This document shows positions 31,420 through 51,448 of a stretch of DNA of 64,000 bases, piece after piece. The stretch covers positions 378,180-442,179 of the forward strand of contig NZ_VHQI01000001.1 in NCBI RefSeq assembly GCF_006517625.1. Reading direction: 5' to 3'. Under the pieces are notes generated by a model. The model ran no database searches. It was not told the DNA's origin and was given only the letters and a program-made list of their open reading frames with translations. The position numbers and the translations under genes were made by a program. This DNA comes from Mixta tenebrionis. Lineage in GTDB: Bacteria; Pseudomonadota; Gammaproteobacteria; Enterobacterales; Enterobacteriaceae. The first letter of the stretch is position 1. The number at the start of each line of letters is the position of its first letter.

Positions 31420-31428
31420 AGTGTAAAG

Positions 31429-31972: not shown

Positions 31973-32974
31973 TTACCAGAGCTGGCTACGCTTATCGATT
32001 TCGTTCCAGCGAAAATACATATCGCAGGCCGCAAGGTAATCGGTATGCCAGCACCAGTAGAGATGCAGTAAATAATAGAGCGCGCCAGGCAGGAAACAGA
32101 TGAGAAAATAGACTGCGAACGGCAGAGGCCAGGCCAACAAAAGCAGCAGCAAATTAACCAGAACTATCCAGACGAATTGAATGCTTAGTACCAGCAGCAG
32201 CCTGAAAGCCAGCGATGTTTCATGGAATTTTGCGCAGGGGATGCCAGTCGAAAAAGAAAAATCGATTTCGTTTAAAAACAGTTTGCCGAGAAAGACGTAA
32301 CGCTTCGACAGACGGGTAAATAATAAGTTTATAGCCAACACCGTTGCGCATAAAATAAACGTCGCGACCACCAGCGTTGGCGTCAGCCATCCCTGAGCGG
32401 CAGAGAAGTCAGGATTTCTTTTTAATGGGTGAATAGTCAGCAGCGTCAGCGCCATATTCAGCACAAAACTACAGGCGATATAGTGATAAAGCGTGCGGTA
32501 CTGCCGCTGATGTTGAGTAGTGATCCCCAGCTGCCTGATGTAGCTCGATCTTAGCCAGCGGAACACCAGATAAACCAGCAGCGGCAGCATCGCTGACAGC
32601 GCAACAAGCGCCGGCGTTGTCAGCGGCAGACGCAGACTGTAAGAAAGAATAAGCCACAGCGCCGCCAGCGCTAATATTGCCACCGCCGGCGGGCGCGCGA
32701 GCCGCTTTTCCATAACGCCACAGCTTTTGCCGATAAAATAGCTTAAATCAACGTTCTTCGTGACGCCCTTATACATCCAGTATGCTTCCAGCTCATAGAT
32801 AACGTTAAATAAAATAACTGCTGTAATTGCGCTGAGAAAGCCGGCATCCTCTGCGTTAATGGCATAGCCGTTATTCCGCCAGTAGAGCCCCAAAAAGAAA
32901 AACAGTATCAGGTAAAGGAAAGGTAAAAGCCTTTTATCCTGATAGCGAATAAAAGTTAAATAATCTGGAATCAT
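31973..32974 (-). CDS. Polytopic membrane protein, last gene of the island operon
   Basis: A 333-aa protein with about eight predicted membrane helices in hydrophobic pairs (for example residues 18-30, 43-62, 95-145, 168-180, 195-215, 255-300). The loops are basic, as expected for an inner-membrane protein. I recognise no family motif; an ABC-2-like or acyl-handling membrane protein is possible but unsupported. It begins 16 bp after the acyltransferase gene, so it is probably part of the same transcript. Its place at the end of a biosynthesis/export operon hints at product transfer. Confidence 0.7.
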   Translation of the reverse strand: MIPDYLTFIRYQDKRLLPFLYLILFFFLGLYWRNNGYAINAEDAGFLSAITAVILFNVIYELEAYWMYKGVTKNVDLSYFIGKSCGVMEKRLARPPAVAILALAALWLILSYSLRLPLTTPALVALSAMLPLLVYLVFRWLRSSYIRQLGITTQHQRQYRTLYHYIACSFVLNMALTLLTIHPLKRNPDFSAAQGWLTPTLVVATFILCATVLAINLLFTRLSKRYVFLGKLFLNEIDFSFSTGIPCAKFHETSLAFRLLLVLSIQFVWIVLVNLLLLLLAWPLPFAVYFLICFLPGALYYLLHLYWCWHTDYLAACDMYFRWNEIDKRSQLW

Positions 32975-32990
32975 CCTCTCTCTCCGCTAT

Positions 32991-33923
32991 TCAGATAATT
33001 TTTCGGCAATGTAAGATCATTTCCGGCGAGCTGCGCGGAAAGTCATTAAGCAGCTGTCCCAGATAGGCCTTATTGCTGATTTCAATAAATAGCGGCGGCG
33101 TTTCATACGCCAGCAGACGCTCCAGCGAATCAGTCCACTTCACCGTATGGGTTAAATGCTGCGATAAATTTTGCCGAATCGCCTGCGGATCGCTTTCCGG
33201 CGCTCCGGTTACGTTCATCAGAACGTCGCATAGCGGTTGCCCAATGGGGATATCCATCAGAAAATCTTGCATTTGCTGAACGCCGTCACTCATCAGGCGC
33301 GTATGCCAGGCGCCGCTGACGCCCAGTTTTACCGCCGCAAGCCCTTCGGCAACCAGGCGGCGATTAAACTCGCTCAGGGCGGAGGCCGTGCCGCCCACTA
33401 CCTGCTGAAAGCGGCTGTTGTCGCAGCTGATATCCAGCTCCATGCCGGCGTCCGCAATCCGCTGGCGCATCGCCAGATAATCAAGCCCCTTCACCGCCAG
33501 CATGCTGCCTTTATTCTGCCTGCTTAACCTGTCCATTAAGGCGGCGCGGAAGTGAATTATGCTGAAGATATCCTCCAGCTGCAGTGCGCCAGCCGCGTAT
33601 AACGCGCTATATTCGCCTACGCTATGACCGCAGACGCCGAGAATAGTGCGGGAGGCGATTTTTTCCCGCATCAGAGTGTAGAGCGTGAGATTAATCGCCG
33701 TTACCGCCAACTGCTGCACCGTAGTTTGTATCAGCTTATTCATCGGCCCCTTTAAACACAGGCGACGAAGATCCAGCCCCGAAATATCGCTGGCGCAGTC
33801 CCAAATATGGCGCGTGGCGGCGTTAATATCCCAGAGATCGGCCCCCATGCCAATAACCGGATTTCCCTGCCCGGCAAACAGTAAAACGACGGGCGCTGAC
33901 GTGCTGTTTATATTGATATCCAT
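32991..33923 (-). CDS. Malonyl-CoA:ACP transacylase-like acyltransferase
   Basis: A 310-aa free-standing FabD-type enzyme that loads an acyl (usually malonyl) group onto a carrier protein. Seen: LLFAGQGNPVIGMG at the N-terminus; the nucleophile elbow GHSVGEYSALYAAG with Ser101; and the partner His207 in GVSGAWHT. I start it at ATG 33923, 10 bp after the barrel gene, with GAGG/AGGG upstream, rather than inside that gene. It would supply extender units in trans to the ACP and ketosynthases of the operon. Confidence 0.88.
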   Translation of the reverse strand: MDININSTSAPVVLLFAGQGNPVIGMGADLWDINAATRHIWDCASDISGLDLRRLCLKGPMNKLIQTTVQQLAVTAINLTLYTLMREKIASRTILGVCGHSVGEYSALYAAGALQLEDIFSIIHFRAALMDRLSRQNKGSMLAVKGLDYLAMRQRIADAGMELDISCDNSRFQQVVGGTASALSEFNRRLVAEGLAAVKLGVSGAWHTRLMSDGVQQMQDFLMDIPIGQPLCDVLMNVTGAPESDPQAIRQNLSQHLTHTVKWTDSLERLLAYETPPLFIEISNKAYLGQLLNDFPRSSPEMILHCRKII

Positions 33924-33933
33924 ATACCCTGCC

Positions 33934-35301
33934 TCAGAAATAATATTTAATCCCGGAGTAGACGCCCGTGGTGTTGCCAAACAGGCCGAACTCCGAATCT
34001 TTATTTCCCTGGGCGCGATAGATGCCGCTATAGAGCTCCATCTTTCCATCCAGCTGCACCAGGGGCTTATTATAATGAATGCCGAATGCCAGGCTGTTAT
34101 CCTGCAGATTGATCACGCCGTAAGGTTGTAAACTGGCACGATCGGCGAGACGCAGGGTAGCGAAGGCGTGAAGATAATGCCGGCCCTGCAGCTGGCCCCG
34201 ATTCGCAACATTGTCTATTTCCGCTCCCATCAGATATTGCCAGGCATCAAACGCCCGGTCGAGCGGCGCATAGCCGCTGCGCTGGTTAAGAAAGCGAATC
34301 AGCTGCGTCTGCTGGCGCCATGCCGTTCTGGAGTAGCCTTCGCTCTGAAAATAGTACTCCACGCCCAGCAGGCTAAAGTTATCGGTGGTGTAGTGGCTGC
34401 CGAACGCCGCCTCCACGCCATTCCTGCTGCTGCGGTGATAAAGCGAGGCGGGAAACTGATAATCCTGCACCTGACGCGCCTTATCGCTGTCCAGATGGCG
34501 CCACTGCTGGCGAGAATGCCAGGCCAGCTCCGCATTGATGGCGAACTGCGGCGTCAGATAGAAACTATCAGCAACGGCAATGCTGCGGGATTCACCAAGG
34601 CCGATGCTGAGCGAGGGCGTATGGTTAGCCGCCCGGTAGTCGGTATAGCGCAGCAGGTAGCGCTCGCTGGCGTTAGCACGCTCGGCTGCCGTCCAGTTGC
34701 CGGACGATTCATAGCGCTTAGCAATATGAGTTAGCCTGGGCGATAAGGTGAAAGCCAGAACGTAATCAGGCGTTTCTTCCGTTAAGCGCAGCCCCCAAAA
34801 CGCTTCGCTATAGATCGGCTTTAGCTCCAGATGGTGAATGCCGCTGGCTTTAAATCCGCCGTAATAGCCGGCAAGTAGATTAGCCGGCGATTTTAAATAG
34901 AACAGCCCCGGTCGGGCTCTGAGTTTCCCCGCCGCAACGCTGAGCTGCTCTGAAAGCGTCCAGGAAAGACTCAGGCGATCGATCAGCCCCCTGACACGAT
35001 GTCGATCCTGCTCAAAGCTCTTTGGCTTGCGATAAGGCTGATATGCCAGCGCGTAAAGCGAAACCTGCGTCTCCAGGCTATTTTCCACCAGCCAACAACG
35101 ATTGCTGTAGTGAAGGCCCCAGTCGTTATAAAAATTATCCTTCTGATAAGGATGTTTGCCGTCTGGTCGCCAGAGCGCAGGCTGCCGTTTGGCGTAGCTT
35201 ACCTGTCCGAATAGCGTCATCTCCGCCCCGCTCAGGCAATCAGCCAGCAGACCGGGCGAAACCAGCAGCAGTGAAAGGCATAACGGAGCAGCGCGCAGCA
35301 T
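33934..35301 (-). CDS. Outer-membrane beta-barrel protein of the export system
   Basis: A 455-aa protein with a signal peptide (cut near LLADC), no lipobox, alternating amphipathic strands throughout, and a C-terminal Phe in SGIKYYF, the usual barrel insertion signal. I cannot assign a family. Its ATG overlaps the stop of the LolA-like gene by one base (TGATG), so the two are coupled. In this setting it is a plausible outer-membrane outlet or receiver for the operon product. Confidence 0.75.
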   Translation of the reverse strand: MLRAAPLCLSLLLVSPGLLADCLSGAEMTLFGQVSYAKRQPALWRPDGKHPYQKDNFYNDWGLHYSNRCWLVENSLETQVSLYALAYQPYRKPKSFEQDRHRVRGLIDRLSLSWTLSEQLSVAAGKLRARPGLFYLKSPANLLAGYYGGFKASGIHHLELKPIYSEAFWGLRLTEETPDYVLAFTLSPRLTHIAKRYESSGNWTAAERANASERYLLRYTDYRAANHTPSLSIGLGESRSIAVADSFYLTPQFAINAELAWHSRQQWRHLDSDKARQVQDYQFPASLYHRSSRNGVEAAFGSHYTTDNFSLLGVEYYFQSEGYSRTAWRQQTQLIRFLNQRSGYAPLDRAFDAWQYLMGAEIDNVANRGQLQGRHYLHAFATLRLADRASLQPYGVINLQDNSLAFGIHYNKPLVQLDGKMELYSGIYRAQGNKDSEFGLFGNTTGVYSGIKYYF

Positions 35302-36092
35302 CAGCCTTTACCCCGCTGAATATACTCTTTGGTAAAATGCGACACCGGCAGAGATTCAAACCGGACGTCGCTATATTCCATCACGGAGTAGCCTTTGTTG
35401 TAGCGGACATCCTGCACCACGATGCGCGTTGGGCGATATTTTCCCAGCACCGGCTGATAATTCTGATACCGCACCTCTTTAAGCAGCTTATTATCCTGCG
35501 AGTAATAGCTGGCTTTATAAGGACGGTAGTCGCTGTCTTTCTCTACGTAGTAGGTGATTTTTGGCCAGATAACGTCAGCGGTTTTTCGCTCCAGCTGCAG
35601 CTTGTAGCATCGTTTTTCTCCGCAGGGCTCCTCGCCAGCCAGCTCGGCATGGTAGGCATATTCAAAATTGGTGACGATGACATCGCCATTTGAGATCTGC
35701 CCCAGCAGCCTCTGCTGACGGGAAATGGGCACCGGACGCCGCAGCTGCGGCGTATAAAACCAGAGCGCATACCAGTCAGAAAGCATAATTTTGCCGCGGT
35801 CGCCGGGCGGATAGATAAAGCGCACCAGCGATCGCGCATCGGCCTCTCTTCCCTTTTCCGGCTTTATAAAGCGCATCGAGATATCCAGCACCTGCTTAGC
35901 GGCTGGCTGCCCGGCGCCGGAGCGATATTCCAGCACCGTAACGGTATAGCGAAAAGGCCGGTTAGGCGAGCGCACCTCATCCGCCCGCCGGATAATTTCC
36001 AGCGCCTGCGGCGAGGAGCCGTCGGCGGCCCAACCCGCCGGAGCAAACAGCAGCAGGGCCAGCGCTAAGCGCAGATTATGGCGTCTCATCAT
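35301..36092 (-). CDS. LolA-like periplasmic lipid-carrier protein
   Basis: A 263-aa periplasmic protein: signal peptide over about residues 1-23 (cut near AGWAADG), then a domain like the outer-membrane lipoprotein-sorting (LolA/LolB-fold) proteins found next to FtsX/MacB-type ABC systems. Typical phrases are RSPNRPFRYTVTV, IMLSDWYALWFYTPQLRRPVPIS and YRPYKASYYSQDNKLLKEVRY. GAGGA precedes ATG 36092. It lies between the permease and the barrel, so it may ferry a hydrophobic product across the periplasm. Family assignment is from pattern, not search. Confidence 0.78.
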   Translation of the reverse strand: MMRRHNLRLALALLLFAPAGWAADGSSPQALEIIRRADEVRSPNRPFRYTVTVLEYRSGAGQPAAKQVLDISMRFIKPEKGREADARSLVRFIYPPGDRGKIMLSDWYALWFYTPQLRRPVPISRQQRLLGQISNGDVIVTNFEYAYHAELAGEEPCGEKRCYKLQLERKTADVIWPKITYYVEKDSDYRPYKASYYSQDNKLLKEVRYQNYQPVLGKYRPTRIVVQDVRYNKGYSVMEYSDVRFESLPVSHFTKEYIQRGKG

Positions 36093-36099
36093 CGCTTCC

Positions 36100-37413
36100 T
36101 CAGGCATATTTAAACGCATCGGCAATATTCAGCCGCGCAGCCCGGCGCGCAGGCAGAACAGACGCCAGCGCCGAAGTGGCTACCGGCAGAATAAATGTCA
36201 TCCAGATCAGCGCGGGGTTATCCGTTTTAATAAAGGCGATATATCCCTGCGTCTGTCCCGGAGAAGGCGGCATAGCGATACCGTACAGATTGATGATTCC
36301 GGCAAGACCATAGCCGATAAGCAAACTTCCCAGCGCGCCAGCCAGCCCGATAAAGATGCCTTCGAGTAAAAACAGCCGCATAACGTGGCCCGACCGCAGC
36401 CCAATTGCTCTGAGGGTGGTAATTTCGCGCGTTCGCTCTACGATATTCATCGTCATGGAGTTGCCGATCATAAAAATAACGATCAGCGCGACGATAATTT
36501 TGATAAAGAAATAGATACCGGATAACAGGCTTTCCACCTGTTGATAAAACAGCGACATCTCTTTCCACTCTTTTACCACCAGCGGCAGCTGTTTATCGGC
36601 GATAAAGCGCTGTAGCTTTGCTTTAAACAGCGGTAAATCATCATCATTTTTTAACAGAATTAAAATTTTGCTGACGCCGTTGGTTCCCATAATATGCTGA
36701 GCGGTCGTAAGCGGAACTTTCATCGCCACATCGTCATAGTCTTTGATCCCGGAGGCGAACACGCCGCCCAGCTGCAGCGAAAGCGCGCCCTGCCCGCCCC
36801 TGGCGTTGACTACCATTACATCCAGCCAGTCCATATAACCCGCATTAAGCGTGTTCGCCAGCCCGCTTCCCAGCGTTACCCGATCGGTTTTAATACGCGA
36901 CAGATCGCTGCCTGACAGCAGTTTATCAAAGGAGCCAAGCTTCAGCGCCGCCAGCGGCTCCACGCCCAGCGCCGAGAAATAGCTGGAGGTTTCATTTTCA
37001 TAGTGGGAGATCACCCCGGAGAACTCCAGCTGCCCTGCCAGCGTAGAAATATAAGCGGAAAGCTCGTCGTCGTTAACGATTTGCGCCTTCAGCTTTTCGT
37101 AATCGTCAATAATGCTCTGGCTTTTATTCGCCGTGGTGAAATAGCGCTGATGATAAATTTGCACATGGCCGACGTTGGTTCTTATTGTCTGCTCCTGCAA
37201 GATCCAGAAGGAGTAGCCAATAAATCCGCCATAAATAAAGATGGCGACCCCGCCCAGAATGATAGCGGCAATGGTTGAGAACGAGCGCCTTTTATGCCTG
37301 AACAAATTCAGGAAAGCGAATTTCGCATCCTGGGTTCTGTACAGCACGCAATAAAGCACGAAGCATAAAATCAGCGCGACCAAAATCGTGACTATTTCCA
37401 CTCCGCCCGTCAT
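36100..37413 (-). CDS. FtsX-family ABC permease (LolC/MacB-like)
   Basis: A 437-aa inner-membrane protein with the MacB/LolCE layout: a span near the N-terminus and one at about residues 48-70, a periplasmic domain of some 220 residues, then three spans in the last 150 (ALIVIFMIGNSMTMNIVERTREITTLRAIGLRSGHVMRLFLLEG is the FtsX signature region). The closing sequence SALASVLPARRAARLNIADAFKYA is typical. It pairs with the ATPase at 38060-38761 and would extract a hydrophobic substrate from the inner membrane by mechanotransmission. Confidence 0.9.
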   Translation of the reverse strand: MTGGVEIVTILVALILCFVLYCVLYRTQDAKFAFLNLFRHKRRSFSTIAAIILGGVAIFIYGGFIGYSFWILQEQTIRTNVGHVQIYHQRYFTTANKSQSIIDDYEKLKAQIVNDDELSAYISTLAGQLEFSGVISHYENETSSYFSALGVEPLAALKLGSFDKLLSGSDLSRIKTDRVTLGSGLANTLNAGYMDWLDVMVVNARGGQGALSLQLGGVFASGIKDYDDVAMKVPLTTAQHIMGTNGVSKILILLKNDDDLPLFKAKLQRFIADKQLPLVVKEWKEMSLFYQQVESLLSGIYFFIKIIVALIVIFMIGNSMTMNIVERTREITTLRAIGLRSGHVMRLFLLEGIFIGLAGALGSLLIGYGLAGIINLYGIAMPPSPGQTQGYIAFIKTDNPALIWMTFILPVATSALASVLPARRAARLNIADAFKYA

Positions 37414-38073
37414 TTATCCTCCGTTGACTAAAGGCAATATAATCTGCGCGACTTCACGGGCTTCCCATTGCGGCGCGACGTTATTCTCCAGCGCCAGCCA
37501 TGGCAAGTCGGGATAGCGCGCTGTTATTTGCGCTAACAGCGCGGCGGCCTGCTGCTGCTCTCCACAGTGATAAAGCGCACGGTAGCGCATGTAGCTAATG
37601 CCGGGAGTAAGCTCGTTGAGAGCGGCCTTATTTGCCGCCAGCAGCTCGGCCGTATCGTGCAGGACGATCGCGCAGCGTCCCAGCTTAGCGGGCAGCCAGG
37701 CGTCAAGGCGCGCCCTTAAATAACGCACGCGCGTATCAGATTCATGAAGATCGACGGCTTCATCCAGATAGAAAAAACCCAGCTTCGCATATTCAGCAGC
37801 CTTAACGATATCGTTAACCCTGTCGTAGTGATGCGCCAGCTGTAGCGCGCCGTAAGCGTAGAAAACTAACGAGGCAACATTTTTTTGCCGGCTATATTCA
37901 TCGAACAGCGCGGTGGTTAGTTTTTCCAGGTCGTGCTGCCGGGCGGGAAAGCCCTTTTGCAATACCGTTTCTACCGCCGGCAGACCGCTATTTGCTCTGG
38001 CCGGCGCGCTGGCGCTGAACAGCAAGCCACAGATACAGAATAACAGCGGAAACCGGTAGTTAAGCTTCATCAT
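37414..38073 (-). CDS. Periplasmic helical-repeat protein
   Basis: A 219-aa secreted protein: signal peptide ending SASAPARAN, then helical pairs rich in Ala and Leu with TPR-like spacing (ASLVFYAYGALQLAHHYDRV, AEYAKLGFFYLDEAVDL, YHCGEQQQAAALLAQI). It probably mediates protein contact, perhaps with the permease periplasmic domain. The start, after GGAG, overlaps the ATPase gene by 14 bp, and the stop abuts the permease start. No specific family recognised. Confidence 0.75.
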   Translation of the reverse strand: MMKLNYRFPLLFCICGLLFSASAPARANSGLPAVETVLQKGFPARQHDLEKLTTALFDEYSRQKNVASLVFYAYGALQLAHHYDRVNDIVKAAEYAKLGFFYLDEAVDLHESDTRVRYLRARLDAWLPAKLGRCAIVLHDTAELLAANKAALNELTPGISYMRYRALYHCGEQQQAAALLAQITARYPDLPWLALENNVAPQWEAREVAQIILPLVNGG

Positions 38074-38761
38074 CCAGTTCTCCATCCCTGATATTGATTA
38101 CGCGTCCCGCTCGCTGTTTTAGCTGAATGGAGTGGGTGGAAATAATAAAGGTGGTGGCGGTCTGCGCGTTAATCTCTGACAGCAGATCCAGGATCGCTTC
38201 GCCGGTGGCGATATCCAGATTGCCCGTCGGCTCATCGGCAACCACGATTTTTGGCTCATGGGCCAGCGCTCGCGCTATCGCCACGCGCTGCTGCTGCCCG
38301 CCAGAGAGTTCGCCAGGTTTACGATCCGCCAGATCCGCCAGCCCGACGAGATCCAGATAGCGCAGCGCACGCGTTTTCGCCTCTTTGCGGCTAAAATGCC
38401 CATTCAGAATGAGCGGATAGCGGACATTATCCAGCGCGTTAAGCACCGGCATCAGGTTGAAAAATTGAAAGATAAAGCCCAGCTCCCGGCTTCTGATCTG
38501 CGCCAGCTGCTGCTCATTAAGTTCGTTCAGTACCTGGTTTAAAAACATTACCGTGCCGGTAGAGGGCTTATCGATACCGGACAGAATATTTAATAAGGTG
38601 CTTTTACCACTGCCTGACGGGCCGCACAGCGCCAGAAAATCGCCGCAGGCAATCTCAAGGTTAATATTTTTGAGCGCCTCGACTCTGTTTTCGCCGCTAC
38701 CGTAGCTTTTACTAATACCGCTCAGACAAATTGCCGGCAGTTCCTTTATATTGTTTGCCAT
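38060..38761 (-). CDS. LolD/MacB-type ABC ATPase
   Basis: A 233-aa ATPase. Walker [10 protein letters not shown] (47-55), Q-loop FQFFNL near residue 99, signature LSGGQQQR (152-159), Walker B IVVADEP with Glu177, and the His switch ISTHS. The NIxxPLIL-type helix and length fit the LolD/MacB/FtsE group. It powers the FtsX-like permease downstream. Confidence 0.94.
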
Positions 38762-38782
38762 TTCGCTTTTCCATTAAGCCCG

Positions 38783-39766
38783 TTAATCACGCCATGTGTC
38801 GAAGTAGTTGTAGCCGCCATAATTATCAGGAACGATAGTGCGCGCCGTCGCCGGCGGTTGCTGTTCCAGAGCGACCCAGCTCAGTGCGGGCGTCAGGCAG
38901 CCGCTGCCGCCATATTTTTCCGTCAGATTAAGCGCCGCCAGACCGGCGGCCTCTGTCGCCTTAAGCAGCGCGCTGCCCGCCCGGCTTTTTCTCAGGCCGG
39001 TAAAAAACAGGCGATCGATCGGCGCCTCGGCCGTAATAAGCGGCGCAGCGCGGTGAATATCGTTACCGGCATCGATATAGCCGCCGCAGTCGATCCTCAG
39101 CGCGCTTTCGCGCTTGCTGAAAATAAAGCAGCCAACGCGTTCTACCGAGAGATTAACATTCGTATCCTGCGATTTTCTTTTACCGCCGCCGGCAATATCT
39201 TCGTCGGAGAAAACCAGCAGCGGAATTGAACGGTAGGCGGCGCAAATGACGACAAAATCGCAGATATCCCAGTTAAGATAATCCTGCGCGACGCGCATTG
39301 CCTGCATCAGCGACTGCTTTTCGCCGCGCATCTTGCAGGTAAAACCGTTCACCGAGAATTTTTTCAGCAGGTTTTTAGGCAGGGTATCGATAATTCCGGC
39401 ATGCAACGCGCTGGACATATTCTCATACAGCCCCGCCTCTCCCCAGGAATCCACGTAGAACAGCGCCGTGCGTGATTTAATTAGCTGCATGCGCACTTTT
39501 GCCGCCAGCTGCTGCAGCGCAATATCGGATGCCTGCTCCAGCGCTTCGATATATTTAATGTAGTCAGGCTTGCGGATCATCTCCCTGGCGTAAAGCTCGC
39601 GCCTGGTTCCAAAGCGTTTAAAGCCCCAGCCCTGCGCCCTGGTGGCTTTCAACGCCTTGTTATAGATATGCGATTCCCATACGTTCAGCCAGCTGGGAAT
39701 ATAAAAGTAAAACTCATCCTCTGGCTCAATAAGGGAATAAGAAGAGAGATAGATGGTATTATCCAT
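38783..39766 (-). CDS. Degenerate ketosynthase-like protein
   Basis: A 327-aa protein, shorter than a ketosynthase (about 410). One segment, FTCKMRGEKQSLMQAMRV (residues 142-159), aligns with the nucleophile elbow of the CLF-like half of the 853-aa protein (LATGENAALGAL), putting Met146 in place of Cys; Cys144 lies two residues away. LNWDICDFVVICAAY resembles the next strand. I see no HGTGT or GHxxG histidines. It starts 1 bp after the neighbouring ketosynthase stop. A structural partner or a different thiolase-fold activity is possible. Confidence 0.65.
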   Translation of the reverse strand: MDNTIYLSSYSLIEPEDEFYFYIPSWLNVWESHIYNKALKATRAQGWGFKRFGTRRELYAREMIRKPDYIKYIEALEQASDIALQQLAAKVRMQLIKSRTALFYVDSWGEAGLYENMSSALHAGIIDTLPKNLLKKFSVNGFTCKMRGEKQSLMQAMRVAQDYLNWDICDFVVICAAYRSIPLLVFSDEDIAGGGKRKSQDTNVNLSVERVGCFIFSKRESALRIDCGGYIDAGNDIHRAAPLITAEAPIDRLFFTGLRKSRAGSALLKATEAAGLAALNLTEKYGGSGCLTPALSWVALEQQPPATARTIVPDNYGGYNYFDTWRD

Positions 39767-39767
39767 A

Positions 39768-43694: not shown

Positions 43695-44855
43695 CTACAG
43701 GGCGCTGCGGGATTTCGACGCATCGACAAAACTGTGTTCCGTCGGGCTGACCAACATGCTGAGGTTATAAAGGAACGGTAAATTGTGCGTCATTGCGGCA
43801 ACGTCGCCGTCGCGGGTGCGAATGGTAAAGCCTTCGATATCGGACCAGGCATAGGCTTCATCCAGCAGAGCCAGCGCAATAAAGGAACGGCGGGCCGGTG
43901 AGAAGGTGGCGCTAATAAGCTTGCCGACAACCTTGCCCTCAGCCACTACCTCATCGTCAGGCTGCATGTCCGTGCAGGCCGCAACAGGCAACATCCCCAC
44001 CACCCTGCGCGCAACGCCGCTGCGGGAATATTCTTCTACCGCCTCTTTGCCGATAAAATCTTCTTTATCGTACTGTACGGCCCACTGCAGCTGCAGCTCG
44101 ACCGGATTGCGCGAGTAAGCGCCATAGATCGAGGCATCCCAGGCGGGATTCTCTATACGCACCGTTTTTTGATAATCCAGGCCGCCGGTTTGCAGACAAT
44201 ATTTTTCGCCGCGTTCAAGCAGCTGCTGCCACAGCGCCGCCAGCGCAGGCTGTTCACCAGCCATCAAATAGCTAAATTCGCCATGTTTGCCGCAGCGGAA
44301 AATCATCAGGCCGTCATCGGCGTTCATAAATTCGTGGTAAGGCAGGCCAATAATGTCAAAGCCGTAGACTTCCGCCAGCACCTCCCAGGAGTAAGGCCCT
44401 TCCAGCAGTATGGCGCCCCAGTCGGCCTCCTCCATGGATTTAATTTCCGGCGCATCCTGAATATCCAGCTCTTCCGCTTTTTCCAGAATGTTTTCCAGCC
44501 GCGTAATCACCGCCGACGCCGTCATATTTTCAGAAAGGAGATAGTAGCCCTCATCTGAGCAGAGTATATAGACGTCGCCGCAGATGGTGCCGTCTTCATT
44601 AAGAACCAGAGAATAGATGCCCTGTTCATCGCGAATAGTAGAAACATCCGCAGAGGCCATATGGTTTACCAGCGCCCAGGCGTCTTCGCCGATTACGCTT
44701 ACGATAGACATATGGGAATAGTCAACCAGCAGCGCATTTTCCCTGACGGCCCGATATTCAATATCATCGTCATGATAAGCAGCGGGTACGATCTTATGAT
44801 TAAATTCCCCCATCCGGGCGTGATTTTTTAGGTGTAAATCATGAAGTGTGTGCAT
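43695..44855 (-). CDS. GcvT-like (aminomethyltransferase family) protein
   Basis: A 386-aa protein of the folate-binding GcvT/YgfZ/DmdA superfamily: an N-terminal domain with ALLVDYSHMSIVSVIGEDAWALVNHM and GIYSLVLNEDGTICGDVYI, and a C-terminal barrel with DFIGKEAVEEY and FSPARRSFIALALLDEAYA. Known members move one-carbon units from or to tetrahydrofolate. The other glycine-cleavage proteins are absent. In this operon it may methylate or demethylate the product, or use the fold for another step. The gene lies between ACP and KS-CLF with a 134-bp gap downstream. Confidence 0.85.
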   Translation of the reverse strand: MHTLHDLHLKNHARMGEFNHKIVPAAYHDDDIEYRAVRENALLVDYSHMSIVSVIGEDAWALVNHMASADVSTIRDEQGIYSLVLNEDGTICGDVYILCSDEGYYLLSENMTASAVITRLENILEKAEELDIQDAPEIKSMEEADWGAILLEGPYSWEVLAEVYGFDIIGLPYHEFMNADDGLMIFRCGKHGEFSYLMAGEQPALAALWQQLLERGEKYCLQTGGLDYQKTVRIENPAWDASIYGAYSRNPVELQLQWAVQYDKEDFIGKEAVEEYSRSGVARRVVGMLPVAACTDMQPDDEVVAEGKVVGKLISATFSPARRSFIALALLDEAYAWSDIEGFTIRTRDGDVAAMTHNLPFLYNLSMLVSPTEHSFVDASKSRSAL

Positions 44856-44872
44856 ATCAATACCTTTATGAC

Positions 44873-45175
44873 TTATTTATCGTTAGCGGATGAGGCTGCT
44901 TTTTTCTTTTGGATAACAAACGATGCCAGATTATTGATAGTGCGCATGTAGGCGGGATCGTCAGTTTCGCTAACCTGAATATCGAATACTTTATCCAGCA
45001 GAACCAGAATTTCCGTGGCATCCACAGAGTCAAGCTTCAGGCCATTGCCGAAAAGCGCGGTGTCATCATCAATCTGGGCTGCATCTTTGGGAATATTCAG
45101 GCGCTGAATAATTTCCGTTTTAATGGTATACAATACCGCCTTACGCTCATCGATGTTCTCTTGCATCGTTGTCAT
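44873..45175 (-). CDS. Acyl carrier protein
   Basis: A 100-aa carrier with the phosphopantetheine site LKLDSVDATEILVLLDKVF, Ser50 as attachment residue. It is longer than FabF-pathway AcpP (78 aa) through polar ends, and less acidic. ATG 45175 follows GGAG with 8-bp spacing. A dedicated AcpS-type transferase lies at the head of the operon, so this ACP probably works apart from fatty-acid AcpP. Confidence 0.92.
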   Translation of the reverse strand: MTTMQENIDERKAVLYTIKTEIIQRLNIPKDAAQIDDDTALFGNGLKLDSVDATEILVLLDKVFDIQVSETDDPAYMRTINNLASFVIQKKKAASSANDK

Positions 45176-45193
45176 CACTGAAACTCCATGTCG

Positions 45194-45745
45194 TTATAAG
45201 TTAACTTCCCGATAATTGATTATCGTCCCCTGACTGATCAGCCGTTTTCCGACGTGAGCGGAAACCGAATAATGTTTAAATCCTTTTTCATCGGCGAAAG
45301 CCAGCTTGCTTACTACCTCGATGGTGTCTCCCGGCCAGGCGGTATCTTTAAATTTTAAATTTTGTGCCGCCAGCACGCCTCTTACCTGCGCGCGTCGGGT
45401 GCGAATAATATCCCGCATATTATCGTCATAAATTTTTCCGCGGATATCACGCAATGTGTGCAGGCTTTCATTATAGCGTTCACGATACAGGTCACAGATA
45501 TCGGTTAAAAAAGATAAGTATTCACTCGCCTGGCCAAAAATCTCAGAAATAATCGCTCCCGGCATAATAGGATCTTCCGGGAAATGGCCGGCTAAATAAG
45601 GATCGTTATAGGTAACGTGTTTGATAACCTGCACATAACCGTTTGGGCCATATTTAAAATCATCAATGCGATCCACCATCAGCAGCGGCGGACGCCAGCC
45701 GCCCATTTCCAAAAAAATTTTCGAGGGAATAGCATATTTCGACAT
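45194..45745 (-). CDS. FabZ-type 3-hydroxyacyl-ACP dehydratase
   Basis: A 183-aa single hotdog fold. The FabZ motif is clear: AGHFPEDPIMPGAIISEIFGQAS, with His54 and Glu68 as the catalytic pair. A long insert (about 75-110) makes it bigger than FabZ (151 aa). It would dehydrate 3-hydroxyacyl-ACP to the trans-2-enoyl form. No enoyl reductase follows in the operon, so double bonds could remain in the chain. Confidence 0.88.
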   Translation of the reverse strand: MSKYAIPSKIFLEMGGWRPPLLMVDRIDDFKYGPNGYVQVIKHVTYNDPYLAGHFPEDPIMPGAIISEIFGQASEYLSFLTDICDLYRERYNESLHTLRDIRGKIYDDNMRDIIRTRRAQVRGVLAAQNLKFKDTAWPGDTIEVVSKLAFADEKGFKHYSVSAHVGKRLISQGTIINYREVNL

Positions 45746-45748
45746 AAA

Positions 45749-46504
45749 TCACCGCATAACCAGGCCGCCATCGATAACGATGGTCTGCCCTACAATGTAA
45801 CTGGACGCTGAAGAGCTTAAATAAACGATGGTATTCGCCACCTCAGCGCTTTTACCCAGCCGCTTTAGCGGAATGGAATTAATCACGTCGCGTACAACGG
45901 TGCGCGATACTTTTTTGACCATTTTTGAATCAATCATGCCCGGCGCCACCGCATTAACCCGTACGCCTCGCGGCGCAAGCTCCGCCGCCAGGGTGCGGGT
46001 GAAGCTGAGCATCGCGCCTTTTGAGGCGCTGTAATTAATCTGACCGACGCTGGGAATAATGGCGGCAATCGAGGCGACATTAACAATTACCGGGCTTTCC
46101 GCCGATCTCAGCAGCATTAACGCTTCTTTGGTTAGCCTGAAAATCGTTAGCAGGTTGGTATCAATAACCGTGCTGAAATCATCAATGCTCATTGCAGCAA
46201 ACAGGCTGTCTTTAACAATACCGGCATTATTTACCAGTACATCAATTTTCCCTGCGCTTTCAGCGAGGAAAGCGCAGAGCTGGACGACCGCCTCGCTATT
46301 GGTGAGGTCGCACTGTAAAATATTCAACCGTTCGCCCTGCGGGTGGATCTTTTTCAACTCGTTTAAATCACCGGCGTGAGAATGGTATAACGCATAAACC
46401 TGGCACTGTTGTTCTAAGAACCGGGTGCAAATAGCCAACCCAAGATCGCCGCTGGCGCCGGTAACCAGCACGGTTTTATCGATAAGATCGTTATACTTAT
46501 ACAT
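45749..46504 (-). CDS. FabG-type ketoreductase (SDR)
   Basis: A 251-aa classical short-chain dehydrogenase. Cofactor motif TGASGDLG (15-22), NNAG (92-95), catalytic Ser145, Tyr158 and Lys162 (YSASKGA), and PGMIDSKM. It reduces 3-ketoacyl-ACP to 3-hydroxyacyl-ACP. It is followed after 3 bp by the dehydratase, which uses its product. Confidence 0.92.
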   Translation of the reverse strand: MYKYNDLIDKTVLVTGASGDLGLAICTRFLEQQCQVYALYHSHAGDLNELKKIHPQGERLNILQCDLTNSEAVVQLCAFLAESAGKIDVLVNNAGIVKDSLFAAMSIDDFSTVIDTNLLTIFRLTKEALMLLRSAESPVIVNVASIAAIIPSVGQINYSASKGAMLSFTRTLAAELAPRGVRVNAVAPGMIDSKMVKKVSRTVVRDVINSIPLKRLGKSAEVANTIVYLSSSASSYIVGQTIVIDGGLVMR

Positions 46505-46524
46505 ATGAATAAATACCCTGTTAG

Positions 46525-46902
46525 CTAGTGCTGTGTAAGAATAGCCACCACGGCTATCGCATGGGTCCGACAGTGTGAAATACTCAACGATAACTTTGTC
46601 ATTCTTCTTTCAGTCAGAATTTCCTTCAGCCGTCCATGCAGAACGAAACAGGGACAGCCATATATATCGTGCTCCACTTCCATATCATGAAAACGTATGC
46701 CTTCACGAAAACCCAGGCCGACGGCCTTAACCATCGATTCTTTTGCCGCCCAAAATCCGGCGGCTCTTTCATAATTCGGCTCACGGGCATCAATTTTATT
46801 AATCTCCCGCTCGGTAAAAACCCGCTGCAGGAAAGCAATGCCTGATACCGAAACCGCCCTTTCAATTCGCTCTACTTCAACTATGTCCGTACCAATAAAC
46901 AT
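46525..46902 (-). CDS. AcpS-type phosphopantetheinyl transferase
   Basis: A 125-aa holo-ACP synthase. Metal and CoA residues are visible: Asp6 in GTDIVEVERI, FTEREI, and Glu55 in GFWAAKESMVKAVGLGF; LSISHCRTHAIAVV closes the fold. It activates the ACP of the operon. It is the first biosynthetic gene and starts only 20 bp after the stop of the TpsB gene, so it is probably cotranscribed with the secretion genes. Confidence 0.93.
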   Translation of the reverse strand: MFIGTDIVEVERIERAVSVSGIAFLQRVFTEREINKIDAREPNYERAAGFWAAKESMVKAVGLGFREGIRFHDMEVEHDIYGCPCFVLHGRLKEILTERRMTKLSLSISHCRTHAIAVVAILTQH

Positions 46903-46922
46903 ATCTTTCCTCTTAGTCAGGA

Positions 46923-48572
46923 TTATAACTGGTAAAAAACGTGAAAGTTTATAGTAAATTTATCTATATTTAGCTCATCCGGTGAAAATAAAGGGGCGGA
47001 TAGCGAAAAGTCATAACCCAGTGCGCCAGCGCTGCCCTTTGCACCCGTGACGGCTCCGATAATTTTTTGGCTATTGCCTGAATTACGATCCCAGGCGCCG
47101 CCTGATATTTGACCGTAATCAACGCCGGTATAGAGCTCTATACCTTTAAATCCGGTGATAAAATTTAAGGTATTCTGTAAATAGAAACCCTTATCGCCAT
47201 AAATTCCGCTGCTGTTTTCAAAACCGCGTACGTTCCAGCGGCTGCCCAGGGTAAACTGATCCTGCAACGTTAACGGATCGGGCGAATACTGCGCGCCAAA
47301 TTTTACATCGTAATAGGCATCGACAGCGCGATAGCGCAGCAGCTTGATATAATTCAGATCGAGATTAACCATGTGGCTTGCTTCGCTGACTTCGCCTGTT
47401 TTCATATCCGGGGTTGGCGTTCCGCCAAACCAGGTTAGGAAACGCTGGTAGGAGAGGCTGCCGTTCAGCGCGGCGCCGGGATAGTTCTGTTTATAATGCA
47501 GCCCGAAACGCACATTGCCCATGTCACGTTTTTGTAATAACAACGCTATATCGTTCAGCCGATAGTCGGCTTTTCTTCTGATAAGCTCTGCCGATCCGGT
47601 GATTTTTTTATCGCTGTTACGAAAAAGCGTCCTGCTGGCTTTGGCGCTAAAATAGTTATTTTCACCGCGATAGCTGAGATCCATATCCGCTATGCGGAAG
47701 CCCTGGCGTGAAGAACTGCGGCTGTAAAACAGTTCGTAATCCCAATAGCCGAAAGGAATGGAGTAGTAGGCGCTAAGGCTTTTATAGTTCCCCGTAGTGC
47801 TGGTGCTGCCTGAGAGATAGAAAATATCGTTGCTGCCGGTCAGGTTATACAGGTAGCCCGCTCCTCCCGCCAACTGCCTGCCGGTGCTCTCGTCGCCCCA
47901 GTTGTTATAGGTTGCGCGCAGGTTCCAGCTACGGTAGCGATTGGTGGCGATCGCCACGTTGCTGTAACCGTCACGACTGCCAGGCTCAATACCAATTTTC
48001 ACATCAACGCCGGGCACACGTTGCAAATTTTCCAGTCCCTGTTCGATATCCCTGATATTCAGCACGTCGCCCGGTTTAAAAGGCAGAATCCATTGATAAA
48101 CGTCGTTATTTTCAATTTTTATCTGTTCAATTCTTCCCGGAATTACCTTTAATGTCAGCTTATTCAGGGTTAGGTCCTGGTCGGGGATTTCAATACGCGT
48201 GGTAATGTAGCCTGCATTGATAAAATAATCCTGGATAAGGGTAACCGCTTTTTCTACACCACGCATGCCTATACAGCGATGCGCAATGTTCTCCTTTAAC
48301 CGATTAAGCGATGAGCGCTGTAAAAAATCACCTTCAAGCACAAGTTCGTTTATTGTAAAGCAGTTCTCCTCCACGGGAAAATCTGACGTATCGTTATGTT
48401 TTACGTCAATGGTAGAATAAACATCCTTTTTATCCAGCCGGTTTTCTTTACGTGCGGCATCATCATTATTCTGTTGTTCTTTGATGATACGGTTTAAGTT
48501 CGACTGTGCGACAGCCTGAAAATGACAGGCGTAAACAGTTAAAAAGCAAAAAATAGCGTGCGTTATTTTCAT
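46923..48572 (-). CDS. Two-partner secretion transporter (TpsB, ShlB/FhaC family)
   Basis: A 549-aa outer-membrane Omp85-superfamily transporter: signal peptide cut near FQAVAQS, a linker, two POTRA domains (about 65-205; CFTINELVLEGDF, GYITTRIEIPDQDL), then a 16-strand barrel with the conserved VRGF motif (Arg449-Gly450-Phe451) and a C-terminal strand INFHVFYQL. It exports the TpsA protein encoded upstream. It is separated from tpsA by 53 bp that contain a terminator hairpin. Confidence 0.93.
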   Translation of the reverse strand: MKITHAIFCFLTVYACHFQAVAQSNLNRIIKEQQNNDDAARKENRLDKKDVYSTIDVKHNDTSDFPVEENCFTINELVLEGDFLQRSSLNRLKENIAHRCIGMRGVEKAVTLIQDYFINAGYITTRIEIPDQDLTLNKLTLKVIPGRIEQIKIENNDVYQWILPFKPGDVLNIRDIEQGLENLQRVPGVDVKIGIEPGSRDGYSNVAIATNRYRSWNLRATYNNWGDESTGRQLAGGAGYLYNLTGSNDIFYLSGSTSTTGNYKSLSAYYSIPFGYWDYELFYSRSSSRQGFRIADMDLSYRGENNYFSAKASRTLFRNSDKKITGSAELIRRKADYRLNDIALLLQKRDMGNVRFGLHYKQNYPGAALNGSLSYQRFLTWFGGTPTPDMKTGEVSEASHMVNLDLNYIKLLRYRAVDAYYDVKFGAQYSPDPLTLQDQFTLGSRWNVRGFENSSGIYGDKGFYLQNTLNFITGFKGIELYTGVDYGQISGGAWDRNSGNSQKIIGAVTGAKGSAGALGYDFSLSAPLFSPDELNIDKFTINFHVFYQL

Positions 48573-48585
48573 GATGGTCCCGAAT

Positions 48586-48616
48586 TAAAAAGGCGGCAGC
48601 CAGGCTGCCGCTTTTT
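48586..48616 (-). terminator. Intrinsic terminator between tpsA and tpsB
   Basis: Stem GCGGCAG / CTGCCGC with a 5-nt loop, A/T runs on both sides (T5 after it on the minus strand). It would lower, but not necessarily abolish, read-through into tpsB and the biosynthetic genes. Confidence 0.8.
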
Positions 48617-48625
48617 ATTTACTTA

Positions 48626-51289
48626 TTATTTAGGCCGTTCAGTTACCAGTATTGTTCCGCCGACGTTAGTAACTTTTGGACTGTTCAAATCGGTTCCTTC
48701 AAAGCCGCCTAACGTAGCCTTCTGACCGCTATTGAGAATGCTTTGCGCAGTAACCTGAACCTCTTTCTCTGAATGCAGGTTGCCGTAGTTATAAACATTC
48801 TTCCCGGACTGAACGGTAACCAGCTTGTCGCTAACTATGTTAGCTTTATTAGTGATGTCGCCTTTAGCGCTTATCAGAGTCACCTCACCGCTATCCATAT
48901 TACTTTGATGGTTATTGGTAATATAGCCATCCGATTTAACCGTAAGGTTTTTGCCGGCAACCATATCTTTATAGTTGGTGACCGCACTTTTAGCAGTCAC
49001 AGAGGCATCGCCTTCCGCATGGACAGTATTACGGTTAGAGAAGATCCCCTGTTTTACATTTACGGTAACATCACCTGATTTACTGTTGATCCAGCCATAG
49101 TTAGTAAAAGTATTATTCAGGGTTAATGCTAACCCCTGGTGCCCTTCAATCACGCCTGTCGCATTATCTTCAACAACCGTTCCGGAGCTACGGTTATCCA
49201 TAGACACAGCATCAACCGTCATTGTACCTTTACTGCTTATGAGCGCGTAATTGTTATTGATATGGTTGGCGTGGATAGAAGCCGCGCCGGCGTTAGCTAT
49301 AATTTTGCCATAGTTATTATTTACGTCGCCTTTAATCTTCAGGTTAACCGGACCAGCCTCGCCGACAATACGGCTGTTGCTATTGATAAGGGTGGCTGCG
49401 TTAATCTCTACGCCGGCACGCCCTACCATACCGCCTTTCTGCTGCGCCATGCCAAGGTAGTTGCCATGAATACCCGCAAAGCTATAACCATTACGGTTAT
49501 CAACGTAGGTTCCGGCGTTAAGGGTCAACTTTTTATTGGCAACCATCAGCGCTTCACTGTTATCAATATATCTGTCGGCAGTCAGCATGACATCCTGGCC
49601 TTCTAATATGCTGCCTTTGTTAAATATACTGTCTGCCTGAACTTTTACATGCCCCTCTTTCGCTTTAACAATGGCAAGGGTGTTAAGGAATTCGCGGTCA
49701 ACTTTGATTTCAATGTTTTCATCGCTGACCAGGCCAGCGCGGGAATTCAGCAGCGATTTAGCAGTAACATAGACTGATTTATTGCTTGATAACTTACCAT
49801 CATAATTATCAACCGAGCCGCTGCTGGTAAGCTCCAGGTTACCTTTAGTCGCAATCTGCCCTTTACGGTTATTAATGGCTGCAGCCTTAATCCGGATGCC
49901 GCCCTCGCCCGCGATAATCCCCAGCGAGTCTCCGCTAAACGTATCGGCTGTCGCCGTGGTGCCGTTAGTTACGCTGCCCTGCAGCGCGTCAATATGAACA
50001 TATCCGGCCGTTGAACGAATAAGTCCTTTAGTATTATAGAGATGGCTCTTACTGGTTAAATCCATATCGCCGGTGGCTTCTATCGTACCATCACTGTTAT
50101 CAATATAATTGGATGTTGTGCCGACATAGTGACCTTTAATTAAACCGTTACGGTTATCCAGCGTTCCCGTTTCCAGTAAAACCACGGCGGAGTGGATACC
50201 TGAATGCTCTCCTTTGCCGGTGTTGGTCAGCGTCTGGTTATGGGTATTAATCGCCACCATTTCGCTTGCTTCGATTTTGCCATTGACGTTGTTAAATACG
50301 CCGCTATCGATAAATACGTTTCCTTTTGTCGCGATTCTGCCCCCGGCTGAGTTGGTCAGCGCAGTCTGGTTGGTATTGATATTAATATTACGTTCGGCAG
50401 TAATTGAGCCTGCTCCATTTTCCAGCGCATTAGCCGTGTTGATAGAAACATCGCCCAGAGAGCTGATGGCAGCTTTGGTATTTATTAACTTCCCTTTGCT
50501 TGTGATTTCAACGCCCAACGGCCCGCCGGCGATCGCGCCCGCATTACGTACGCCCAGCCCTTGCTCGGTGCTGATAAGTTTGATTTTATCAGCATACATG
50601 CCTCCCAGAGCCGCTACGTCGATACCGTAGCTGTTGAAGAAGTTCCAGCCCGCATTAACCTTACCCGTTACGTTTCCTGCGGCATCAATGTAGTTATTGC
50701 CCGCGATAACGGTCAGTTCTTTAGCCATAGCCTTGCCGCTTACCGTTACATAGCGCGCCAGCAGCTCGGTCGGCGATTCATTCGTCAGCTTTTTAACCTC
50801 AATAGTGCCGCCGCTTACCGCATAGCCTTTCAGCTCACCGTTTTGCATATCCGGCTTACCGGTAGTCAGGGTAACTTTTTCGGTATTAATGAAGTCGCAG
50901 CTTTGGCAGCTGATGCCGTTCGGGTTGGCGATAATCAGATGCGCCTTGCTGCCAGCCACTTCCATCTTCCCGTTCAGGGTGCTCTGATTTCTGGAGGTAA
51001 CTTCATTCAGGATAATTTTTGCCGCGCCTGAGGTCAGATTGCTGTTGCCCTGAAGCTCGCCGGCCAGTTTGGAGGTAACGTCGCTCTGGCTGTTATTAAA
51101 AATCAGGCCGCTCTTATCCACGTTCAGCTTATCGTAGATGTTATGGGAAATGCCCTTATCATTAGCTTTATTGATATTGATGACCGTCACCCCGTTAACC
51201 ACTGACGCTGCGCCATCTTTCATAGCGATATTAGCGGCCTGGGTTACTACGGGCAGGGTTAATAGCAACGATGCGGCTATGGGATTCAA
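48626..51289 (-). CDS. TpsA exoprotein, filamentous-haemagglutinin type
   Basis: An 887-aa open frame from a TTG codon. Signal sequence (PIAASLLLTLPVVTQAAN), TPS domain with NPNGI at 122-126 and a CxxC pair (Cys128, Cys131), then many short beta-helix repeats of the type LTSSGSVDNYDGKL, INN..GQIATKG. It ends without VENN, toxin or pretoxin domain, so it is not a CdiA. Short for an FhaB-like adhesin. Better start: ATG at 51324-51322, with AGGA 8 bp upstream, gives a basic n-region that joins this frame only if the A7 tract had one extra A. Base composition is clearly more A/T-rich than the core genes. Confidence 0.9.
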   Translation of the reverse strand: MNPIAASLLLTLPVVTQAANIAMKDGAASVVNGVTVININKANDKGISHNIYDKLNVDKSGLIFNNSQSDVTSKLAGELQGNSNLTSGAAKIILNEVTSRNQSTLNGKMEVAGSKAHLIIANPNGISCQSCDFINTEKVTLTTGKPDMQNGELKGYAVSGGTIEVKKLTNESPTELLARYVTVSGKAMAKELTVIAGNNYIDAAGNVTGKVNAGWNFFNSYGIDVAALGGMYADKIKLISTEQGLGVRNAGAIAGGPLGVEITSKGKLINTKAAISSLGDVSINTANALENGAGSITAERNININTNQTALTNSAGGRIATKGNVFIDSGVFNNVNGKIEASEMVAINTHNQTLTNTGKGEHSGIHSAVVLLETGTLDNRNGLIKGHYVGTTSNYIDNSDGTIEATGDMDLTSKSHLYNTKGLIRSTAGYVHIDALQGSVTNGTTATADTFSGDSLGIIAGEGGIRIKAAAINNRKGQIATKGNLELTSSGSVDNYDGKLSSNKSVYVTAKSLLNSRAGLVSDENIEIKVDREFLNTLAIVKAKEGHVKVQADSIFNKGSILEGQDVMLTADRYIDNSEALMVANKKLTLNAGTYVDNRNGYSFAGIHGNYLGMAQQKGGMVGRAGVEINAATLINSNSRIVGEAGPVNLKIKGDVNNNYGKIIANAGAASIHANHINNNYALISSKGTMTVDAVSMDNRSSGTVVEDNATGVIEGHQGLALTLNNTFTNYGWINSKSGDVTVNVKQGIFSNRNTVHAEGDASVTAKSAVTNYKDMVAGKNLTVKSDGYITNNHQSNMDSGEVTLISAKGDITNKANIVSDKLVTVQSGKNVYNYGNLHSEKEVQVTAQSILNSGQKATLGGFEGTDLNSPKVTNVGGTILVTERPK

Positions 51290-51309
51290 TTTTGCTATGC
51301 CACACTTTA

Positions 51310-51316
51310 TTTTTTT
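51310..51316 (-). repeat. A7 homopolymer in the tpsA start region
   Basis: Seven A on the coding strand, five codons after the ATG at 51324-51322. With seven A that ATG runs into TAA; with eight it reads through to the signal peptide and the whole exoprotein. Confidence 0.9.
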
Positions 51317-51448
51317 GTTCTCATTTCATTTTTCCTAATTTTACTATTTTTATTTTTTATTAGCGCCTGGCTAGTGATTCCATTCAGTAAGCAAACAAAA
51401 TGATCTCATCTGAATATTTGTATTCCATCACTAATTAAGGCTCCCTGC

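Follow-up and report, generated by a model that had tools for sequence, protein, structure and literature searches.

The granadaene (cyl) operon of group B Streptococcus is the described system closest in make-up to the operon considered here. Our subject is a run of 17 head-to-tail open reading frames (ORFs), recognised from an ORF list and domain scans on the minus strand (51289 to 31973) of a 64,000-nucleotide stretch of Mixta tenebrionis DNA, hereafter the window (contig NZ_VHQI01000001.1, positions 378,180 to 442,179). A pair of two-partner secretion (TPS) genes, tpsA and tpsB, heads genes for acyl-chain synthesis and export. We propose, at a probability of about 0.5, that this is a horizontally moving envelope-modification operon, in which a polyene acyl line and Lol-like export would be combined with an exoprotein, TpsA, acting on the same surface. 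With cyl taken as listed in Table 1 of PMC6985545, the two operons have in common a ketosynthase (KS; CylH/I), ketoreductase (KR), dehydratase (DH), acyl carrier protein (ACP), phosphopantetheinyl transferase, malonyl transferase, ABC exporter and an unusual GcvT-like protein (CylF). The two were compared by domain only, and at that level counterparts of CylF, KS, KR, DH and ACP are all present. In contrast to cyl, the window operon has two extra KS-fold proteins, LolCDE/LolA/barrel-like export, the TPS pair and Gram-negative hosts, and no glycosyltransferase was recognised in it. The passages of PMC6985545 on distribution report cyl operons from Gram-positive bacteria and a chloroflexus, and treat the acyltransferase CylE as universal in them. 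General Pfam and NCBIfam scans, which had no CylE profile, named no acyltransferase besides the malonyl transferase in the window operon. With no CylE counterpart named by these scans and no glycosyltransferase recognised, the operon is better said to work like cyl than to be cyl. A cyl-like cluster on a Priestia plasmid encodes a fused ketosynthase-chain-length factor (KS-CLF) and a GcvT that are 28% identical to those of the window operon. In a tree, 10 cluster GcvTs and the Priestia GcvT were set apart from 7 other GcvT-family sequences (support 100/98), in a grouping where long branches meet; BLAST E-values of the Priestia protein gave the cluster GcvTs no advantage over the rest of the family. 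Further Gram-positive clusters contain fused KS-CLF genes too, with no GcvT-like gene annotated nearby.

Aryl polyene (APE) operons share with the window operon a type II KS/KR/DH/ACP line and a LolA-like carrier, and the sections of PMC8253772 on these operons place the APE product in the outer membrane. The same sections describe an acyl-ACP synthetase for the aryl starter, a thioesterase, a SAM methyltransferase and an RND transporter, unlike the window operon, which has GcvT-like, ABC/FtsX, barrel and TPS genes instead. Pfam and NCBIfam found no family of aryl-starter acyl-ACP synthetases or RND exporters among the 17 proteins. In TPS loci of the HMW1ABC type, an exoprotein gene and a transporter gene are followed by a modifying gene. 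The window has the same order, but its TPS pair is followed by a 15-gene lipid operon with no recognised glycosyltransferase.

A version of the operon is present in Escherichia coli. In the excerpts available, island OI-47 is called 'adhesin and fatty-acid biosynthesis', with a fimbrial cluster also listed in it (PMC5567499), is fully conserved in O145:H28 strain RM13516 (PMC3893438), is placed at z1528-z1556 in a text concerned with its regulator GrvA (PMC8565820), and includes a c-di-GMP phosphodiesterase named VmpA (PMC4076661). RM13516 was among the matches when E. coli genomes were searched with KS-CLF and GcvT DNA. The first EDL933 genome paper reportedly used the same description of the island. 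The complete operon was present in both E. coli genomes opened, O145:H28 RM12761 and GF3-3 (guinea fowl), in one orientation and in the order of the window: TpsA-TpsB-AcpS-KR-DH-ACP-GcvT-KSCLF-KS2-u327-ABC-TPR-FtsX-LolA-barrel-MAT-YcdU. The E. coli copies differ from the window in their site (serX in GF3-3) and in a longer TpsA (1270 aa), and fimbrial genes lie upstream of them. We regard this operon as very probably identical with the fatty-acid part of OI-47, a link to the name that rests on the papers, and as part of this island it is very probably not new to print. The preliminary description of the window, which knew of no described system with the full set, has to be corrected to this extent (PMC5567499). 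In the excerpts of the OI-47 literature available we found no function or product assigned to the fatty-acid part. In E. coli K-12, ymdE-ycdU (L135 9545-10830; G and L numbers are our labels for genomes and loci) lies beside IS3D and is 98.7% identical over 1719 nt to the 3' end of the GF3-3 operon. Judged by this identity, K-12 retains only the tail of the operon, and ymdE and ycdU are its 3' relic. The pair is described as typical of mastitis E. coli in PMC4951805, of which the parts on these genes do not explain its origin.

The operon family is real, widespread and mobile. Among named genomes, a KS-CLF scan picked up six loci (Rahnella laticis, two Kosakonia, Tenebrionibacter, Entomohabitans and a Paraburkholderia metagenome-assembled genome). 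The profile of u327, a 327-residue protein of the operon, matched 30 of 392 genomes of the family (17 of 154 genera), 6 of 394 of the order and 2 of 398 of the phylum, in draws that overlap and include the window's own genome each time. At 60-80% identity, KS-CLF and GcvT DNA had matches in 370 of 5426 complete E. coli genomes, and in all but one of these (369) the match spanned 80% of the query or more. Plasmid copies are found in Rahnella sikkimica and Enterobacter bugandensis. Insertion sites vary, from serX in E. coli GF3-3 to a tRNA cluster in the window's genus, and uvrC is near the operon in G000, G1006, G942 and G849. The patchy spread, the plasmid copies and the differing sites together indicate transfer of the operon. 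In G270, which belongs to another family, UvrC is 59% identical to that of the window, versus 74% for KS-CLF, and both TPS genes are present. On the E. bugandensis plasmid (L009 4498-27408), the operon is flanked by two copies of the same IS6 transposase. G1064, of the window's genus, has no operon (L136 414-1566); a 165-bp piece resembling the last gene (72%) lies between tRNA-Cys and tRNA-Gly, and this remnant implies that the operon was lost there rather than that the site was always empty. A tyrosine DNA invertase is encoded upstream of tpsA in both Rahnella loci (L001 1242-1793, FimB-like by eye; L011 7474-8025, annotated).

Forty-one loci were scored; without two repeats (G958 = L003 and G737 = L005) and two loci cut by contig ends (G1022 and G803) there were 37, with L004 and L007 outside this table. 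Genes common to the 37 stand in constant order, beyond chance, and catalytic residues are conserved along the biosynthetic line (Table 1). In the window, domain calls (Pfam and NCBIfam scans against family cut-offs) confirm the preliminary description of a real 17-gene run and back its TpsA, TpsB, AcpS, KR, DH, ACP, GcvT, KS-CLF, second KS (KS2), ABC, FtsX, LolA and malonyl transferase (MAT). No family was found over cut-off for u327, the TPR-like protein, the barrel or the last membrane protein. The TPS domain of TpsA, with the POTRA domains and ShlB/FhaC barrel of TpsB, identifies two-partner (type Vb) secretion. TpsB does end 20 bp before AcpS; the few-base gaps or overlaps described earlier are seen at most junctions (-35 to 21 bp) and fail at TpsA-TpsB (53 bp), GcvT-KSCLF (134 bp) and barrel-MAT (-116 bp, an overlap that depends on the start codon chosen). 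No start codon matches the end given earlier, 51324, and the tpsA ORF begins at TTG 51289. The biosynthetic genes resemble a type II polyketide line of the reducing kind (fused KS-CLF, KR, DH, ACP and GcvT-like protein) with no clear enoyl reductase, a domain content consistent with the polyene- or hydroxyacyl-type line suggested before. The polyene class itself is supported by pathway logic but unproven. The AF2 model of u327, earlier called KS-like, has an overall KS/thiolase fold by Foldseek; modelling suggests that u327 is likely a degenerate ketosynthase-fold protein and partner of KS2 (hhalign of the two gave P 0.0012 and a probability of 19.7), and the residues of both disfavour a decarboxylating condensation by the pair. 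By domain, the export set appears LolCDE/LolA-like, as had been proposed; the FtsX permease does not reach the LolC/E equivalog level (TIGR02212, 88 bits vs a cut-off of 362).

The TPS pair appears to have been inherited together with the biosynthetic genes. Across 15 genomes with both TPS genes before acpS (form A) or with tpsB only, pairwise TpsB distances correlated with those of KSCLF (0.79), GcvT (0.82), KR (0.81), FtsX (0.73), barrel (0.82) and LolA (0.76), versus 0.27 for the host protein UvrC. For TpsA (first 450 residues, 14 genomes) the values were 0.75 with KSCLF, 0.81 with TpsB and 0.11 with UvrC, and the biosynthetic and export genes correlated with UvrC at 0.18-0.43; permutation P values of these distance correlations are uncorrected for tree shape. 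A second run, with two close relatives dropped, two named loci added and no UvrC control, gave 0.57, 0.70 and 0.61 for TpsB and 0.55, 0.50 and 0.47 for TpsA with KSCLF, GcvT and KR, respectively, and 0.67-0.79 among the biosynthetic genes themselves. TpsA and TpsB thus seem to follow the history of the biosynthetic genes and not that of the host, and the survey of loci agrees with the tight linkage noted at the outset. Linkage alone can yield such correlations, so the data show shared travel and not shared function. The TPS pair may be a partner of the lipid genes, a reading that co-inheritance and the retention of at least one partner support.

A GC-rich hairpin lies directly 3' of tpsA in all 20 form-A gaps, as judged from folds, and 14 of these also pass a stricter T-run rule. 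Both Proteus-type loci carry the hairpin after tpsA as well, as do the two unlinked Kosakonia tpsA genes. Eighteen operon-linked loci (16 of the 20 with form A and the two of Proteus type; for G849 the last 75 nt of the 156-nt tpsA-tpsB gap were used) had folding z-scores between -2.5 and -8.4. The unlinked Kosakonia genes scored -1.8 and -3.1, and the range at 15 control junctions, taken from five loci, was -0.7 to 1.9. Across 17 sequences, two-sided changes were seen at 7 of 11 pairs, and 92.9% of cells were paired; of five measures, four exceeded every one of 500 shuffles and the fifth all but one, in an alignment made by sequence only from which the structure was also derived, an advantage over the slid controls. 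The TpsB-AcpS junction had no comparable structure in the five loci tested. The hairpin thus belongs to tpsA, and it points to a 3' end of its own for the tpsA message, with read-through into the rest; with so conserved a hairpin after tpsA, shared transcription would be read-through. One shared transcript, as claimed in the preliminary description, is doubtful at one point, tpsA-tpsB, where the conserved structure is terminator-like.

In the proposed mechanism, AcpS would prime the ACP, MAT would load malonyl units and the fused KS-CLF would elongate the chain. KR and DH would turn each unit into a double bond and, without an enoyl reductase, this would give a conjugated polyene (or partly hydroxylated) acyl-ACP. 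The KS2/u327 pair might pass the chain from ACP to an acceptor, replacing a thioesterase. The LolD/FtsX transporter would extract the amphipathic product from the inner membrane, the LolA-like protein would ferry it through the periplasm and the barrel would take it up at the outer membrane. In the form present in the window, TpsB would also export the beta-helix exoprotein TpsA, whose gene heads the operon, and the hairpin of tpsA could let TpsA be made in excess. TpsA would most likely act on the surface that holds the lipid, as a scaffold or carrier, and would be an accessory of one branch of the family.

Several points, taken up in this and the following two paragraphs, weigh against this proposal. 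Among the 17 proteins, Pfam and NCBIfam showed neither a separate enoyl reductase nor an adenylation enzyme, and no thioesterase scored over cut-off, as had been claimed, with the caveat that the best Pfam match of the KR is PF13561, a broad SDR family titled 'Enoyl-(ACP) reductase'. The best NCBIfam match of the KR is 3-oxoacyl-ACP reductase (TIGR01830, below cut-off), so the claim of no enoyl reduction rests on the NCBIfam naming and on the lack of a second reductase. The line might, instead of a conjugated polyene, make a short acyl chain (hydroxy-, mono-unsaturated or saturated) that serves in phospholipid or lipid A remodelling; the combination of KR and DH does not dictate how many double bonds form, and MAT and DH are near ordinary fatty-acid enzymes in Pfam and NCBIfam. 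This seems quite unlikely, since a second reductase is absent from the run and KS-CLF pairs are typical of type II polyketide and polyene lines. In addition, the sections on cyl and aryl-polyene operons in PMC6985545 and PMC8253772 have polyenes coming from the same enzyme types. As to the transfer step of the proposed pathway, acceptor and release are guesswork, and the model of u327 is of low confidence (pLDDT 62.8), with Foldseek TM-scores of only about 0.5. The Proteus type is without TpsB, LolA and barrel, and its ABC protein (L008 19819-20526) has no Walker A or LSGGQ motif. Several TPS-less (form B) loci encode an extra predicted periplasmic protein between u327 and ABC, for example L006 14923-15699, with a weak DUF6134 match below cut-off.

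The TPS pair is also not constant. Both genes stand before acpS in 20 of 37 loci, tpsB alone in two (L002 and G1040), tpsA alone in two (Proteus L008 and G814, where lolA and the barrel gene are missing too) and neither in 13. All 13 TPS-less loci have an extra SDR gene between the FtsX and LolA genes, as none of the other 24 does, and the core therefore needs no TPS. In two of the 13 (G1001 and G934), a stretch resembling TpsA (35-38% identity) follows the last gene at a distance of 0.7-1.4 kb. In Kosakonia G1098 (L002) and G1100 (L004), the two genomes in which an unlinked tpsA was sought (G1040 was outside this search), a TpsA of the same subfamily (47%) is encoded on another contig, and the sole close TpsB is the one in the operon. 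In G1098, TpsA comes closest to the E. coli type (71%), and TpsB to those of G1040 (85%) and G973 (58%); these differing affinities imply a pair of mixed history whose joint inheritance is not constant. Independent occurrence of TPS and biosynthetic genes in relatives, named beforehand as a refutation of the link, is thus seen in part. The hairpin may also uncouple tpsA from the remaining operon. It is possible, if somewhat unlikely, that the TPS genes hitch-hike: they would be an adhesin operon that came to stand ahead of the lipid operon in one lineage, and linkage would have kept them there without any common function. The TPS-less loci, the hairpin that sets tpsA apart and the mixed history in Kosakonia fit this idea, as do the fimbrial genes upstream of the E. 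coli copies and the more A+T-rich tpsA-tpsB stretch (45-48% GC in 46001-52000 vs 49-57% in 32001-46000). Against it, all 24 loci without the extra SDR retain at least one TPS gene and none of the 13 with it does, the Kosakonia loci keep tpsB without an adjacent tpsA while both genomes searched have an unlinked one, and tpsA and tpsB have moved jointly to another family, although linkage alone could also match the distances. In G270 (L049-L050), more TpsA-like stretches lie downstream of the operon and a second close TpsB is nearby.

The last difficulty for our proposal concerns the start of tpsA. An in-frame ATG precedes the signal peptide in 19 of 22 loci, with none in the window, its sister G1006 or G814. 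The window tpsA has no in-frame ATG even upstream of TTG 51289; a nearby ATG (within 51200-51450) is in another frame, which stops at a poly-A tract. Tracts of 7-8 A are found near the tpsA start in six more loci (G166, G849, G976, G951, L009 and L008) and in G1006. The window start may reflect a changed or switchable frame, or an error, and TpsA may not be made in the window strain. Within residues 604-623 of TpsA, which lie outside the repeats, F604, G609, Y611, G613, Q617, G619, G620 and G623 are shared by 90% or more of 22 TpsA sequences, so that this stretch is a candidate functional site. Covalent attachment of the chain to TpsA, or modification of TpsA before export as in HMW1ABC, could make use of this stretch; it would agree with the HMW1A-B-C-like gene order and with the lack of a thioesterase, which requires transfer to an acceptor. 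We consider it very improbable, because the core operon also occurs without TPS, both Cys residues of TpsA are missing in 7 of 22 homologues and a Lol-like route points to a membrane lipid rather than a Sec-exported protein.

A stretch known only as 'adhesin and fatty-acid biosynthesis' becomes a well-delimited and widespread gene family whose product class can be tested, and the orphan K-12 genes ymdE and ycdU are explained as an operon relic. The forms with TPS, without TPS and with TpsA alone offer a natural comparison for the role of a secreted protein in a surface lipid. More speculatively, and rather unlikely in this specific form, the operon could be a Gram-negative counterpart of granadaene, a poorly soluble, membrane-active polyene lipid that a dedicated TPS-secreted beta-helix carrier displays at the outer membrane or releases from it. 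On this view a type Vb exoprotein and a polyketide line would be one weapon or colonisation factor, transferred among Enterobacterales and carried by several percent of complete E. coli genomes.

Table 1. Features of the operon and its borders in the window.
Feature	Coordinates	Strand	Basis
TpsA, TPS secretion domain and FHA-type repeats, 887 aa from TTG	48626..51289	-	PF05860 1.9e-40, PF05594, TIGR01901/TIGR01731
Hairpin 3' of tpsA, before tpsB, terminator- or stabiliser-like	48588..48616	-	folding z -2.7 in window; covariation
TpsB transporter, two POTRA domains and ShlB/FhaC barrel	46923..48572	-	PF03865 1.6e-66, PF08479, PF17287
AcpS-type phosphopantetheinyl transferase	46525..46902	-	PF01648; TIGR00516 over cut-off
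KR, 3-ketoacyl-ACP reductase, SDR family	45749..46504	-	Pfam/NCBIfam; Ser/Tyr/Lys conserved in 37/37 loci aligned
DH, FabZ/FabA-type dehydratase	45194..45745	-	PF07977; His and Glu conserved in 37/37
ACP	44873..45178	-	PF00550; Ser conserved in 36/36
GcvT/CylF-like folate-dependent aminomethyltransferase-family protein	43695..44855	-	PF01571, PF08669; PDB relatives; tree
Fused KS-CLF	40999..43560	-	two ketoacyl-synthase copies in 853 aa; N half Cys-His-His, C half without Cys; residues conserved in 35/35
KS2, divergent ketosynthase-like	39768..41033	-	Cys or Ser as nucleophile in most of 31 loci aligned; Tyr in place of the second His
u327 (327 aa), predicted degenerate ketosynthase fold, likely KS2 partner	38783..39766	-	AF2 model; no family over cut-off
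ABC ATPase, LolD/MacB-like	38060..38761	-	PF00005; Walker A and LSGGQ present
Predicted periplasmic TPR-like protein	37414..38085	-	weak TPR_14 below cut-off; signal peptide by eye
FtsX/LolCE-like permease	36100..37413	-	PF02687, PF12704 (FtsX/MacB_PCD); lolCE 4.6e-25 below cut-off
LolA-like periplasmic carrier, TTG start uncertain	35301..36125	-	PF17131 3.5e-37
Predicted outer-membrane beta-barrel	33934..35301	-	signal peptide and C-terminal YYF by eye; no family over cut-off
MAT, malonyl-CoA:ACP transferase, start uncertain, overlaps barrel gene	32991..34049	-	PF00698 over, TIGR00128 below cut-off; Ser/His conserved in 28/28 aligned
Polytopic membrane protein, relative of E. coli YcdU	31973..32974	-	AF2 helical, pLDDT 83.7; no family over cut-off
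tRNA-Gly (glyW position), upstream border of insertion	52527..52602	-	
tRNA-Cys and tRNA-Leu (cysT-leuZ position), downstream border	31333..31502	-	

The operon of the window is flanked by tRNA-Gly on one side and by tRNA-Cys and tRNA-Leu on the other, which is the glyW-cysT-leuZ order of enterobacteria, and it adjoins pgsA and uvrC. The preliminary description mentions neither these tRNA borders nor the hairpin of tpsA. The gap between the GcvT and KSCLF genes (43561-43694 in the window) measures 69-217 bp across the 17 loci listed; its sequence is poorly conserved by eye, and it could possibly hold a second promoter or an RNA element.

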